Shown in pieces: positions 1-61,523 of a DNA stretch of 64,000 nt (position 1 is the stretch's first letter; every line of letters starts with the position of its first letter). Source of the DNA: Liolophura sinensis (Eukaryota; Mollusca; Polyplacophora; Chitonida; Chitonidae). The stretch spans positions 34,903,191 through 34,967,190 of the forward strand of contig NC_088302.1 in assembly GCF_032854445.1 (NCBI RefSeq). The letters run 5' to 3'. The position numbers and the translations under genes were made by a program. Under the pieces are notes generated by a model, which saw only the letters and a list, made by a program, of their open reading frames with translations, searched no databases and was not told where the DNA came from.

Positions 1-1987
1 TCAGATTGATGCTGTTGTTGCGGCATTTTACACAAGATAATTCTGTTTGAATGATACTAGCAATGTTTTTTGAGAGAAATAAACTATAATGAGTAATGGG
101 TTGGAGATTGTTTACCTTGCTGAAAGGTGTTACCTAACCAGCAACAACAAAGAAAAAGATCATGTGGTCGGGTACAGGTGGAGCTTAGGCCCCTGGCCTC
201 AGATGCAGTGCGGTAGAACAGGTAGGTTTGATTAGCTACCTCTACCAGTTTTGGTGGTCTCACCTTTTTCATTAGCAGCCTGCTTGTCTCGAACATCGCC
301 ACACATTAAAATGAAATCTGTCCATTATCATGGCTGTGGCGTGTGTAAATAATGTCACATCCTTTGTGTGGAGACTTTCCAAAGAAGCTATGATTCTGCC
401 ACATCAGCATAGTTCATTTTGAAACTTATGACTACTGCAATATTTCACCAACATATGTGAACTACAAACCCATAACTACTCCACTTGGGTTCACAGACTA
501 GTTCTATTTTGTGAAATATTGAACTGAGCCAAATGTTACAAAAGTCACCTGCCATTGCTCTAAGAGTGGACGCAGTCGCAATTACGGTTTGCTTTCGTTT
601 TGTAGTGGGATGATGATCTTCGAGGTGAGGCCGCTGAAATTGTAGCGCATATTTGTGGAGGTCTGTACTTATACAGGAGACACTCTAAAAGTGTCCGAGG
701 AGCAAGGTGGCAGAACTCTGGCACTACTCCAAGAAATGTAAATATAAGGATGTGTGACTTCTGAATCTCTGTAGTGGCTTTAAAATGATATCGAGGTGAA
801 GGTGTCATCTAGCAGGATCAGCATTTTGCCAAAAGATTACTAGTCCTTTCAATCCCACTAAGAGCATCTTTAGGGCGAGTTGTTAAGTACATATAACCAC
901 CATTTAATGATTAAATATGGTATTGATTTTTGCCCTAGATTTTTGTTACTAGAAATTTTAGGTAATTTCAAGATGGTCAGTCACATCTCTTTTACTTGCT
1001 AAGTGGGCGAAAGTAAAGCCCACAAGTAGGCCTACTCGAATCCAGCCACTCAACCCAAAACTACATATTGCTTACCCACAACATCTAAGAAGTAAAGGAA
1101 CACAGTTTGTGCAACAAGGCAAAATGTAGTTTCACCAATTTAAGCGATCCACTGCTATTTGTCAGCTGTAAGCGGGCAGTGTAACCTTTCACAGCATAAC
1201 ACCACGAATAACGTAGCGGTTTCAAAAGATGCATAAAAATAAAATGTCTAAGTTGGTGTCAGATTCTGCGTCTAAAAGAACATTGGCTTGAAACATATTG
1301 TATTCATTTACCTAATAAATCATTTTATTATTTTATTGGACGGCTGTCAAGGCCTGATTCCTATTGTCAATTTATAACCAAAACCATGTTAAAACCATAA
1401 GCCAAACCAGACAAGCCTGTGCATTGATTATAAAAAAATGGATGGGATTTGACTTGGTACAGAAATTAGCATACATTATTAATATAGACCTGAATCATTC
1501 AGCAATGTCCGTTGTAGTTACTCCATGTCGTTTTTTAATAACTCTAAGAGTCAAGTCCAATATTTCCATTAACCGGAAGTGAAATTACCGAGCACAGCAT
1601 TCGGCAGTTCTTCTGTGCTGAATGGATGCTTGAAGCTGTCACTACTCAAATGCATTAGGCTTGGAAACTCCAGTAAGAAAATCCACAACAGCTAAAATTT
1701 TGACTCAATACCTTGCTGTCATTAAATGTTCAGTGCATGTATATTCTTAATTCTAAATGATAAAATTGAGCTAAGAAGCCTAAGGACCGATCAGTTTTGT
1801 TCATCACCCATACTGATTCCATTCTTCTCTTATCTATAATGAAACAGCTCTGATAAAGCTTATTGTTTTTTCTGAACAGGTTGTCTATATAGTATCATGG
1901 ACTATAGCATGGTACCATCCCTGTTGTACCCCCCTGACTGATAATTGGATAGATCAGAGCACTTGGGACAAGCCTTAGCCAATCAGA
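1..1987. other. Upstream region of TAF1, no clear gene
   Basis: I see no convincing gene here. A minus-strand frame runs from 302 down to 84; its first 13 codons (from MAMFETSR) end at AAAAAG followed by GTGAGA, a good donor, so a divergent first exon is possible but unproved. The TAF1 promoter and 5' UTR must lie somewhere before 1988; I could not place a TATA box or initiator with confidence. A possible acceptor (TTTTTTCTGAACAG) ends at 1879, which would fit a 5' UTR exon covering 1880-1987. Confidence 0.4.
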
Positions 1988-34276
<32,289 letters not shown>

Positions 34277-35994: not shown

Positions 35995-36500
35995 AAACTG
36001 ATGGTTTCCTCTGGGCAGTTTTAGTGTCCTTCAGGCAGTCTAGGTCTTTCAGGTAGTCTTGGTTTCCTCCAGGAAATTTTAGCGTCCTTGAGGCAGTCTT
36101 AGTGTCATTCAGGCAGTCTTGGTTTCCTCAAGGCAGTTTATGTGTCCTCCAGGAAATCGTAGTGTCCTTCAGGCAGTCTTGGTTTCCTCAAGGCAGTTTA
36201 TGTGTTCTCCAGGAAATCGTAGTGTCATTCAGGCAGTCTTGGTTTCCTCAAGGCAGTTTATGTGTCCTCCAGGAAATCGTAGTGTCCTTCAGGCAGTCTT
36301 GGTTTCCTCAAGGCAGTTTAAGTGTCCTCCAGGAAATCGTAGTGTCCTTCAGGCAGTCTTGGTTTCCTCAAGGCAGTTTAAGTGTCCTCCAGGAAATCGT
36401 AGTGTCCTTCAGGTAGTCTTGGTTTCCTCAGCCCATAAACTTGAGTGCTGTCGTATAATTGATATTGTCTTGAGAACTACATTGGATACTAATGAAATGA
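35995..36500 (+). repeat. 60-bp minisatellite inside a SINE copy
   Basis: At least five units of exactly 60 bases (36121-36420), plus diverged ones before, built on TTGGTTTCCTCAAGGCAG and GTGTCCTCCAGGAAATCG. On the right it continues as CCCATAAACTTGAGTGCTG then GTCGTATAATTGATATTG, the SINE family A body, and on the left as GATGGTTTCCTCTGGGCAG, also SINE-like. Long open frames here come from the 60-base period and are not genes. Confidence 0.9.
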
Positions 36501-38405: not shown

Positions 38406-39908
38406 CTGTTGTAGACATTGCTAAACTCATTTACAAAAAATGGAACGAACAAGAGGCATGTAGGCTTACTTAGATCTACTGCACTTGTGGTGGAGTTTTG
38501 CTTTCCCTGTATAGCCACTGAAGTCCCCTCATAACAACATTGTACGTGTGGTACTGACGGCCATATATGCCTTAATGCAGATATTGTAAATGTTGCAGGT
38601 GAGGCTTTAACTGCAGAAGTTGTATTCGTTCCAATAGGACAGCTGGATCTAGGCCATTAACGTATACGAACAAGGCTATCCGGAATCGCTGCCAATTGTT
38701 TAACCCTTCATTCAGAATAGCCTTCTGACATGTCTGATGGCAGGTAGTCACAATTTAGCTTCACTGATGCAGCCTTGAATGGTTGCCCACATTTTGAAAA
38801 TATGTTTGTTTCGCATTGACATAACTTCATCTGACTTTCACTGATTTCTGAATGACTGCAATGCAATGAATGAGTAAGCACTAGTGCGCAAACCCTATTG
38901 TTTTGTGTGTATGGGTATATAGCTGTATATCTGCATGCGTTATGCCTGAGGCAAACTTTGTGTGTGCAACAAAAGGGTGAATATGCAATTTTGTGTTTGT
39001 TTCTCTAGTCGCCCAAAGCATTAGCCCGATTTCACACACGCATTTCTTGTATATCGGTACGCCACCAGCCCTCCCCACGTCCGCATTTATTGGCTGGCAT
39101 GTATTGTGAGTTAGAGGTGGGATGCTATTTGGCAAGTAATACTAATTCTTATATTAGTGTTACAGCATCCCAGAGTGGGTTTTAACCCACATAAATTTTA
39201 TCTTGAGATAAATTTGAGGTGCTTTTTCACAACTAATATATAACAGGGCTTAGGGCTATTGCCTAGGGCTTAAAATGAAAAGAAGACTTGATGTACATAA
39301 CTTCTGATCTTCTGTATTCTGACCAGTCTCCGACAAATGATACCCGGCATACTACGGGTGTACGGCTTTCTCAATATACATTCGTGTATATGTAGTTTTT
39401 GTCATGTTACTAAGTGTATTCCATGCGGCGCTATTCAGGGTATTTCACTCAAAAATACATATTTGCTGTTGATGATGACCTATCCATGGCATCTCCATAT
39501 CTGATACCAAGAAAACTAGTATTTTTCAGAACACTAGCTGACAAAACTCTGTTTGCTATTTTAAACACTTGACATTCACCATTACAATGTGTTTCAGTGA
39601 ATGTCAGAATTTGAAAATAACACTCTGATAAGTACTGCCTCCAACCATTTTGCTGACCGCAGTCCTATAAATGAAGTATTCTTAAGTCTGGCAAAAAACA
39701 CCAATCAAGATGATCGAAAAAATAAATAAAGAAGTTGCATATTAACACTTCAGTTTACAGGGAAGAACCAGTAAAGATTATGCAATACAGTGCTCATATT
39801 GATCAGTTGTCCTCCTTGACACCAGCTTTGCTCTAATATTGTGGTATTTTGTATATATTTGTACTTAAATTTTTGTTTTCAGATTTATTTGCATATGATA
39901 GGTCGAGG

Positions 39909-40420
39909 ATGAGTCACCGTAAGCTTCGTGTGACAGAGTCTGATCATAGACTTGCAGTGGGTGCTCTGTTGAAGCCTGAGGTTCTCCCAACTCGTTCGTC
40001 AATATCACCAACTCCACGTTCTCTCAGAGGGCACACCCCTTCTTCTGTGCGCTTTTCTGATGCTGCGGAGAGCCACCCGTATTCCAGTACTTTTGAGGAT
40101 GCACCAACGGAAACCAGAACTGTTTCTCTGTGGAGCGATAACTTTGACTCTGCTGTGACTTGCAGGACATCATACACAGACACTTTTGTTAGCAAATCCA
40201 GTGTTAGAGCGTCTGAATCGCAGGCGTCCTTGTCAAGGAGATCACTTCAATCTCTGGATGATTCTAGTGTCGGAGCATCATACTCTGACACTTTTGAGGC
40301 CACGTCATCAAACCAGCTCTCAAGGACACAGGATGTTTCACAATTAGGTTATAGCTTGTACTCTTCTGAGGCAGACAGGGATAGTCAGAGCACAGTGAAG
40401 TCTGTGATTGACTCCCACAG
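39909..40420 (+). CDS. Uncharacterised gene, exon 1 (Ser/Thr-rich, repeated motif)
   Basis: 170 codons plus two bases; donor GTAGGC. The exon physically starts at 39883 after TTTTGTTTTCAG if an upstream exon exists. It contains four of the five aromatic-S/T-D/S-x-F motifs (YSSTFE, WSDNFD, YTDTFV, YSDTFE). Confidence 0.85.
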
Positions 40421-43400
40421 GTAGGCACATGTTCCCCAATATGACTGTATAATGAGAATTTATTATTTATGTATGAAGGTGAAATATCAGGGTGATCTTT
40501 TCAGATAAATAGGGATAGTGCACAGTGAAGGTTGAATAATATAAAAATTGCCTGAGTGTGAGGTGGAAATTGTATAACCCAAGACTTGACATACTTGAAG
40601 CATCATGTGGGTTATCATTTTGCACCTTTAACAAGAGCAATATTTATGGTATTAAACTTTCATAGTGCAATATTCTATTTATTATTTATATTTTGACAGT
40701 ACCCTCCCACTACCGTCCTACTTTCCTACTTTTGCAGACAACCCTCCCACCTGTCCAACTTTCCTACTTTTGCAGACAACCCTCCCACCTGTCCAACTTT
40801 CCTACTTTTGCAGACAACCCTCCCACCTGTCCTACTTTCCTACTTTTGCAGACAACCCTCCCACCTGTCCAACTTTCCTACTTTTGCAGACAACCCACCC
40901 ACCTGTCCTACTTTCCTACTTTTGCAGACAACCCACCCACCTGTCATACTTTCCTACTTTTGCAGACAACCCTCCCGCCTGTATAATTTTCCTACTTTTG
41001 CAGACAACCCACCCACCTGTCCTACTTTCCTACTTTTGCAGACAACCCTCCCACCTGTCCTACTTTCCTACTTTTGCAAAAAAACCCTCCCACCTGTCCT
41101 ACTTTCCTACTTTTGCAGACAACCCTCCCACCTGTCCTACTTTTCCTACTTTTGCAGACAACCCTCCCGCCTGTATAATTTTCCTACTTTTGCAGACAAC
41201 TCACCCACCTGTCCTACTTTCCTACTTTTGCAGACAACCCTCCCACCTGCCCTACTTTCCTACTTTTGCAGACAACCCTCCCACCTGTCCTACTTTCCTA
41301 CTTTTGCAGACAACCCTCCCACCTGTCCTACTTTTCCTACTTTTGCAGACAACCCTCCCACCTGTCCAACTTTCCTACTTTTGCAGACAACCCTCCCTCC
41401 TGTCCTACTTTCCTACTTTTGCAGACAACCCTCCTACCTGTCCTACTTTCCTACTTTTGCAAACAACCCTCCCAACTGTATAATTTTTCTACTTTTGCAG
41501 ACAACCCTCCCACCTGTATAATTTTCCTACAATAAATGTGGCAATCTCACCTTGCAACTCTTCTTTTCAGGAGGTTAAGAACTGAAGACACACAGGGTAG
41601 TCTTGTTATCAGATATGATTACACCGACTCATTTGAGACATCAGATTTAAGTCCATCTGAAGAGGAAAGCGAAACTGTGAGTTAATGTACGATATATGTG
41701 GATGTTGTAAAGAAAAGGTTGCTGCCATGTGGTAGTGATGTCAATTCATTGAAGAATCTCCTTTTCACTGTGAACATTTGATAAGTGGGTCAGCGGCCAA
41801 CAAATGGTCACAACTCCAGTATTTTTAATCAGAATGTAGTGTAAATGTCTTTGACACTTATAAATATGTCTTTATATTTTATGTTTGTACATTAAATACA
41901 TGTATGACTGAAATAAATTTCACAACATCAGCTGTTAAAAGAAGCAAACTTTTAAACAAGTACCATGTGTATTGCTCTGCCTCTGCGTTTTGCAGGCCTT
42001 GGTAACAAGAAAGGGGCAAATGTCCCTTTCCCAAAATCGGTAAATTATGCTTTACTTTAAGCTACTTGTAGCTTTGCAGTACAAAACCTGTGTGCTGTGT
42101 GTTGGAGAGCTTGTCAGTTACTCTGTATGAATTATAACAAACACAGATTCTCTACTAGTCACTTCAGTTTTCTCCACCGACATGTATACAACTGATGATT
42201 ATTGTATAAATAAAGCATTCTTGAGATTGACATTAATCCCCAATCAAATCACCACAGGGTCTACCAACCATCAGTGAGGACGATGCTCGCTATGAATTTG
42301 TCAGGCGTCTTCTGGACAGATTGAGAGGCGAGAAGGATGAGGGCTTGAGGAAGTCGGCAGGATCCATATCACAGCACTCAGAAAAGACAGGTGGGGTAAC
42401 GGTATTTGGAAGCACATGTAACGGCTTCACTTACCATAGCGCACTTCTAGGGCCATTACAGTTAGTAATGTATTGACAACTCTCTCTCTTTCCCTCAGTA
42501 TGATGAACTGCATATTTGCACCAGACCTCACATTAACTTATTCTAAAAAAGAAATATTGATTTATCTATTAAGTGTGATGCAATACCATAATGCAGACAT
42601 GTAGTACCGTAATCCATAAATGCATGCAATACTGAAGAATGGAGGAGGTAGGGGTGGGGGTGTTGGGGGCAAAAATTGTGCCCCATTTACCCTATTTGTG
42701 TACGAAAATAAATAGGAAACTCCAGACTTAAACTGCAACCGAGCGGAGATCATTTGAGAACAGAATGATCAACACTGCATTATTTATACATCAGTGTCAG
42801 TATAGCTTACATGTACAGAAAAACTTCAGCTCACACTTACATAATAACAATACAACAGGAAGAAAGCTAACCTATTCATAGGTGCATTAAATTAGCAGTT
42901 GACTTGTATTACCAAAGATGTGATTCTGAGGGTCACATGATATGCGTGCACTGTTTTATTTGTACATTCATACAAGCACTTTTCATATTGCTTTAAATAC
43001 AGAGTCAGCAAAGATGCTTAAGGCCAATGATGTCAGTACATCCTCAAAGTACTGCAAGGAGAAAATCAAACTTCTGAAGAGGAAGAAAAAATATGGCAAG
43101 TTTTAAACCTCCTTTCAGATTTCCTTGATTTTTTACAAGGACCGGAAGATGGACTGGAAGACGGAAATATATTTTATACAACCTATTACTATAGAGGGAT
43201 GCAAAATTGGTGATTTGTACAGAATGCTTTTAATTTATGATTTTTTCAGCTCAAATTGAGATCAATTTTGAGTTTTCTGACAAACAAAAAAACAGCCTTG
43301 GACTTTCATGTTTCATGGATAAAACTGACCAATGTTGCATAAGTGATATATTCCTAATTAATCAAGCAAATGAGTAATCACATAAGTAAATAAATTGCGA

Positions 43401-47315: not shown

Positions 47316-47370
47316 CATGTAACTACTTATGTACAGTTTGGTGCAGTTTCCTATGCATGGTGTTGGAGTC

Positions 47371-47570
47371 TTTTTCATTTACTTAATGATGTTGACTATG
47401 ATTTTCAGATTTTAGCATGGTTTCCTCCAGTCTTGTGTATTTCATTTACTTAATGATATTGACTATGATTTTCAGATTTTAGTATGGCTTCCTCAAAAGT
47501 CTTTTCATTTACTTAATGATGTTGACTATGATTTTCAGATTTTAGCATTGTTTCCCCTGCACAGTGCTGG
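47371..47570 (+). repeat. About 65-bp tandem repeat, three units
   Basis: Units contain TTCATTTACTTAATGATGTT, GACTATGATTTTCAGATTTT and GTTTCC. A diverged unit lies at about 47110-47180, beyond a SINE copy that seems to have inserted in the array. Confidence 0.85.

Positions 47571-52037: not shown

Positions 52038-61523
<9,486 letters not shown>

Follow-up and report, generated by a model that had tools for sequence, protein, structure and literature searches.

The window analysed here, the whole 64-kb stretch of DNA, carries the TAF1 gene and, downstream of it on the same strand, an uncharacterised gene (the host gene), one predicted intron of which contains a tandem array of acceptor-like units. 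Many exons of TAF1 are recognisable by their likeness to human TAF1. They were located by tblastn, the query being a human TAF1 sequence, and the 3' end of the gene near 34273 is deduced from an open frame. The features that define the locus are as follows.

1979..34273, plus strand: TAF1 gene, source of 34 control acceptors; traced by tblastn exon by exon to ~30958 and by an open frame at 33791-34273
39897..40420, plus strand: upstream coding exon (exon 1) of the uncharacterised gene, with YSDTF-like repeats; open frame 39837-40424, coding score and donor
40421..41570, plus strand: predicted phase-2 intron around the array; GT...AG borders, flanking exons join in frame
41546..41550, plus strand: CTCAC, candidate branch point for the acceptor at 41570, with its A 21 nt before the intron end
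41571..41676, plus strand: exon 2, whose acceptor ends at 41570; in frame with exons 1 and 3, donor ACT/GTGAGT

The name exon 1 is our numbering within this finding; its predicted start at 39897 is perhaps not the true 5' end of the gene. Exon 3 begins at 42258. The donors of exon 1 (CAG/GTAGGC at 40421) and exon 2 each match 7/9 donor positions. Exon 1 holds three copies of the YSDTF-like motif and exon 2 holds one. A Pfam search with exon 1 returned no family at E values up to 0.1. The array itself was considered as coding sequence and rejected. It contains long open frames (275, 274 and 118 aa) because the unit holds no stop codons, but the frame of exon 1 runs into TAG at 40422-40424, at the very start of the intron. 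Rfam and tRNA scans gave nothing that bears on the array.

Structure of the array

Tandem Repeats Finder reports a minisatellite at window positions 40701-41517 (period 38, 21.4 copies, 91% matches, score 1358). Cutting the sequence at TTTTGCA[GA] resolves 21 units between 40700 and 41500, 18 of them 38 bases long and three 39 bases long. The parts of the array referred to below are:

40700..41500, plus strand: tandem array of 21 units with the consensus ACAACCCTCCCACCTGTCCTACTTTCCTACTTTTGCAG, from Tandem Repeats Finder, unit cutting and a column table
40966..41348, plus strand: a block of five units may have been duplicated here (unit 8 = unit 13; unit 12 = unit 17)
41196..41233, plus strand: unit 14, the sole unit away from the array edge that combines an AG with a consensus branch-point 5-mer within range (one yTnAy upstream of 41233)
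41501..41530, plus strand: partial last unit of 30 bases without AG, matching the array unit over those 30 bases

Units end in TTTTGCAG in 19/21 cases and in TTTTGCAA in the other two. These two, units 10 and 20 (ending at 41079 and 41462), carry AA instead of AG and lie apart within the array. A sequence-only reading of this DNA had described about 21 units of 38 bases, of which about 19 keep the AG, with the real acceptor of exon 2 some 40 bases further on. This description holds: there are 21 units of 38-39 bases, 19 with the AG, and the partial unit stops at 41530, 40 bases before the intron ends at 41570. With head-to-tail units in the range of roughly 10-100 bases, inside an intron that is itself predicted, the array is an intronic minisatellite. 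No second near-identical copy of it was present among nine whole-assembly matches.

The identity of unit 8 with unit 13, and of unit 12 with unit 17, suggests that copying within the array may have proceeded in multi-unit steps. Lag 5 (mean identity 0.920, 2/16 pairs identical) is not the sole lag with high identity, since the mean at lag 13 is higher (0.925) and lag 3 likewise gives two identical pairs.

The units resemble 3' splice sites

An acceptor weight matrix was trained on the 34 TAF1 acceptors, which were hand-picked from the tblastn borders, leaving out unclear starts such as the one near 4400. Scored by leave-one-out, these acceptors have a median of 6.9 (range 1.8 to 12.8, n = 34). 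All 19 array AGs exceed this median with scores of 7.3 to 10.6, and the real acceptor at 41570 scores 12.4, above every one of them. Among the other plus-strand AGs of the 64-kb window, 129/3928 (3.3%) reach 6.9. By this measure each AG-bearing unit is on a par with a typical real acceptor or slightly ahead of it, and the acceptor at 41570 surpasses them all. The earlier description of the units as consensus-like 3' splice sites is therefore supported by a locally trained score.

Seven other arrays in the window were scored in the same way. Acceptor-like AGs occur on the plus strand in three of them, with 8/47 (36002-36430), 3/9 (47367-47555) and 7/33 (55795-56403) AGs at or above the TAF1 median; the minus strands of these three give 0/30, 0/13 and 0/63 respectively. 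On the minus strand acceptor-like AGs occur in one array (33430-33766, 1/10 AGs).

Branch points were sought as a yTnAy 5-mer located 15-51 nt upstream of the AG. Such a 5-mer is in reach of 23/34 TAF1 acceptors and of the acceptor at 41570, but of only 2/19 array AGs, those at 40737 (two candidates, both from the upstream flank) and 41233 (one). The remaining 17 array AGs have none. The same is true of 11/34 TAF1 acceptors, so a missing yTnAy is not prohibitive. If any array unit gets used as an acceptor, unit 14 would be a candidate. The 68 nt upstream of 41570 are free of AG, and the last array AG therefore precedes the candidate branch point of this acceptor. As a rule the spliceosome takes the first AG past the branch point, which here is 41570. 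The array also contains 22 GTs; these match at best 5/9 donor positions, compared with 7/9 for the two real donors.

Splicing of exon 1 to the array AGs is predicted to lead to a stop codon in 19/19 cases, 18 within the extension and one in exon 2. An exon 2 that began inside the array would therefore truncate the product, which argues against the array as a supplier of useful variant exon 2 starts. Truncation is, in turn, what a different reading calls for, namely that array AGs are used at a low level, that the resulting transcripts are prone to decay and that expression of the host gene is lowered. Array scores inside the range of real acceptors, the consensus branch points for 41233 and 40737 and the uniform predicted stops are all compatible with it. 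However, a consensus branch point is missing for most array AGs, and every one of them lies upstream of the candidate branch point of 41570; we regard such use as improbable.

A dispersed family of related repeats

The whole assembly (632 contigs) was searched with the array, with two patterns and with the consensus. The array query gave nine matches including itself, the patterns 45 and 17 and the consensus 44, and reversed-pattern controls gave one match (versus 45) and none (versus 17). Related sequence lies at no fewer than 11 sites on eight contigs: C1, C4, C6 (four sites), C7, C8 (the window), C9, C12 and C13. This number is a lower bound, as the searches score the best candidates only; the consensus search, the wider one, added no sites to these 11. 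Related arrays at several unlinked sites constitute a dispersed minisatellite family. Its units are ~29 to 39 bases long and share the core CAGACAGGCCTCCCACCTGTCCTACTTTT, composed by eye from printed units; the site on C1 is a single unit. At least one AG reaching 6.9 is found at 8/11 sites (the window and 7/10 sister sites, with none at C4, C1 and C6:46.94 Mb), so that a sense copy of the family tends to resemble a row of acceptors. In the sister array on C9 (L058:4404-6290), which is ~1.9 kb long and lies inside a predicted coiled-coil gene, the TAF1 median is reached by 48/129 plus-strand AGs and by 0/277 minus-strand AGs.

Several sister arrays can be assigned to genes. The array at C6:30.57 Mb begins ~30 nt past the donor of a PNPT1 exon, in which 34/34 residues align to polyribonucleotide nucleotidyltransferase 1 (E 8e-14). 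The array at C6:54.48 Mb begins ~70 nt past the stop codon of a TIP30 (HTATIP2) gene, identified by two exons (E 3.9e-12 and 1.8e-7). On C9 the array sits in a predicted intron of the long coiled-coil gene, ~950 nt before the next predicted exon; the exons and strand of this gene rest on coding score, and its Pfam matches are weak and below the cut-offs. The site at C6:46.94 Mb lies ~110 nt past an armadillo-repeat exon with a donor and holds copies in both orientations. A PDB search with an open reading frame near the C12 array yielded nothing informative. Overall, four sites are placed in introns (the window, C9, PNPT1 and the armadillo gene), one lies just past a stop codon (TIP30) and six are unplaced. 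The acceptor-like strand is the sense strand at all four sites that have one orientation and a known host strand (the window, C9, PNPT1 and TIP30); this count leaves out C1, C4, C12 and C13, where the host strand is not settled, and C7 and C6:0.51 Mb, where both orientations occur. The probability of four out of four by chance is 1 in 16, so the sense orientation is a lead only.

The existence of the family bears on the proposal that the array grew by duplication of the host gene's own exon 2 acceptor. Proximity (40 bases) and a general likeness to acceptors favour this proposal. However, the unit aligns to its own acceptor region (41532-41620) with a score of 13. The median score is 12 both for the 34 TAF1 acceptor regions and for 494 random stretches, and the value of 13 is equalled or exceeded by 16/34 of the former and 31% of the latter. 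Since the unit matches its own acceptor no better than it matches others or random sequence, the array did not visibly grow from it. With ten further family sites elsewhere, three or more of which (C9, PNPT1 and TIP30) are not beside a predicted acceptor, this origin was already disfavoured and is, in our view, very improbable.

A different origin, which would be compatible with the explanation we prefer below, is descent of the whole family from a miniature inverted-repeat transposon, one end of which, CAGGCCTCCCACCTGTCCTAC, was amplified in tandem. The family occurs in both orientations and opposed copies are found at 3/11 sites (C7, C6:0.51 Mb and C6:46.94 Mb), so it may descend from a small inverted-repeat element. 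Indeed, the C7 site starts with CAGGCCTCCCACCTGTCCTAC and finishes with its complement, and the single unit on C1 points the same way. Against this, no convincing target-site duplication was seen by eye in the printed flanks of the sites, and flank matches among family loci occur at unlike distances from the arrays, so that no common larger element is seen. We consider this origin a reasonable possibility, albeit one with the balance somewhat against it.

Variation among the units

The 21 units have a mean identity to the consensus of 94.7% over 38 columns. The sequence-only reading had seen a hint of purifying selection in the retention of the AG. This is not what the column table shows: the G of the AG deviates in 2/21 units, and of the 37 other columns 28 deviate less, three equally and six more. 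Among the sister arrays, the AG deviates in 0/41 units on C9 (kept in 41/41) and is retained in 12/14 scored hexamers on C13. In the C4 array no AG follows a pyrimidine tract; there are instead 13 copies of TTTCAAAC and six of TTTAAAAC, which likewise argues against selection on the AG.

The pyrimidine tract and AG taken together do vary less. Columns 23-38 contain 2/16 variable positions, compared with 11/22 elsewhere (Fisher p = 0.036, uncorrected and with non-independent units); this comparison leaves out unit 1, the divergent edge unit, which is included in the 21-unit table. In the C9 array, 41 of the 48 pieces are exactly 39 bases long and were used. Here 19/656 cells deviate in the pyrimidine-AG part, compared with 73/943 in the rest, and the contrast is less clear when counted by columns (8/16 versus 17/23 variable). 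The lower variation of this half could reflect weak constraint or the mode of copying of a low-complexity part.

Interpretation

We conclude that the array is probably a local member of a small, dispersed family of minisatellites that expanded in the intron and is carried as a tolerated passenger, its acceptor-like appearance being inherited from the family unit. It would represent a ready-made repeat that expanded in the host intron rather than visible growth from the acceptor. In this scheme a unit landed or arose in the intron of the host gene, and the array would then have grown and been homogenised by slippage or unequal exchange, possibly several units at a time. It would have been tolerated because the signals of the real acceptor are intact beyond it: 41570 keeps its branch point, pyrimidine tract and AG-free zone, most array AGs have no consensus branch point and the array offers no good donor. 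Splicing to 41570 would dominate and the array would be close to neutral. Of the sequence-only interpretation as a whole, the acceptor likeness of the units survives, and the lower variation of the pyrimidine-AG half speaks in its favour; an origin from the acceptor, selection on the AG and useful alternative exon starts do not.

There are two hints of function, the less variable pyrimidine-AG half and the uniform sense orientation of the four sites with one orientation and a known host strand. The strongest functional rival to the tolerated passenger is a length-dependent modulator of splicing, in which the array would bind many molecules of U2AF and poly(C)-binding proteins and either sequester them or enhance the acceptor downstream, allele length tuning exon 2 inclusion or intron retention. 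The array does present 19 acceptor-like sites, and the motif CCC[TA]CCC occurs 20 times in it versus four plus-strand and seven minus-strand occurrences in the remainder of the window. There are precedents for both elements of the idea in two reports: in mammals, C-rich tracts to which poly(C)-binding proteins bind enhance acceptors (PMC4797308), and exon skipping changes with the length of a variable number tandem repeat (VNTR) in an intron of human ABCA7 (PMC5954066). The reduced variation of the pyrimidine-AG half is also in its favour. However, the AG itself is unprotected in the array, the C4 array has no tract-AG and the family arrays hold no fixed position relative to acceptors. We therefore regard a modulator as unlikely. 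A broader version, in which the family spread sense-strand acceptor mimics into chiton genes as multivalent platforms for U2AF and poly(C)-binding proteins, with array length tuning splicing and the pyrimidine-AG half under weak constraint, appears to us a little less likely still.

As matters stand, the array does not amount to evidence for a novel splicing device; what it offers is a natural case of one intron that bears many strong-looking acceptors without obvious need for them. The family also provides a comparison set, with acceptor mimics in the window, C9, C12, PNPT1 and TIP30-end arrays and none in the C4 array, with which to ask why such sites are skipped by the spliceosome.

Relation to known systems

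Tandem repeats that carry splice signals have reportedly been described before by Zhuo et al. 2007, who are said to have traced human introns to tandem arrays. Those arrays reportedly gave rise to introns, whereas here one ordinary intron contains an array. A full-text literature search found no paper on a chiton minisatellite, and other searches brought up no title on such a family, in a coverage that excludes most subscription journals.

The VNTR in intron 18 of human ABCA7 has a 25-bp unit in 12 to about 427 copies (PMC5954066). It and the chiton array share an intronic location, a similar unit length, a recurring splice-site motif and a frame shift when the site of one unit is used. In ABCA7, however, the repeat itself opens with the two bases of a donor that is really used and that adjoins the exon, and the effect of length on exon skipping was measured (PMC5954066). 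The motif of the chiton array is acceptor-like, and the splice site predicted for this intron, at 41570, falls outside the repeat.

The amphioxus 'mirages' resemble minisatellites and carry splice signals at the border of an intron; they seemingly leave regular splicing undisturbed (PMC3087553). Mirages span the exon-intron border (PMC3087553), whereas the chiton unit shows no likeness to the exon 2 border beyond that to other acceptors. It is no closer to its own acceptor than to 34 others, and the array stops 40 bases before the exon. The CeRep25B family of Caenorhabditis elegans consists of dispersed short tandem repeats, 75% of them in introns, in a palindromic arrangement (PMC4039745). 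The chiton family is alike in being dispersed and made of short tandem repeats, and the units differ; enrichment near multiple alternative splicing is shown for the C. elegans family (PMC4039745).

Flanking and neighbouring repeats

A further repeat lies directly to the left of the array:

40607..40690, plus strand: short interspersed repeat beside the array; 83% identity over 84 bases to L058:6527-6609, partial in L060

This repeat recurs near two sister arrays. Both it and the stretch at 40505-40579 match one piece of L058 but run in opposed orientations, so that a palindromic interspersed repeat (40505-40690) may abut the array on its left. An inverted-repeat search of the region to the left of the array returned just one 12-base pair at 83%.

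Opposed family copies at L061:4880-5100 form a hairpin-like pair (CAGGCTTCCCACCTGTCC... and its near complement), and an exon of the Tpt1/KptA RNA 2'-phosphotransferase family lies ~4 kb away. At L061:5926-6180 there is a 39-base repeat with an open frame and a 13-residue unit, present in 7.9 copies in L007. Beside the C6:46.94 Mb copy, L021:1620-1990 holds a sequence ending in a CTCA repeat, which resembles a tRNA-derived SINE; parts of it recur in other loci examined.
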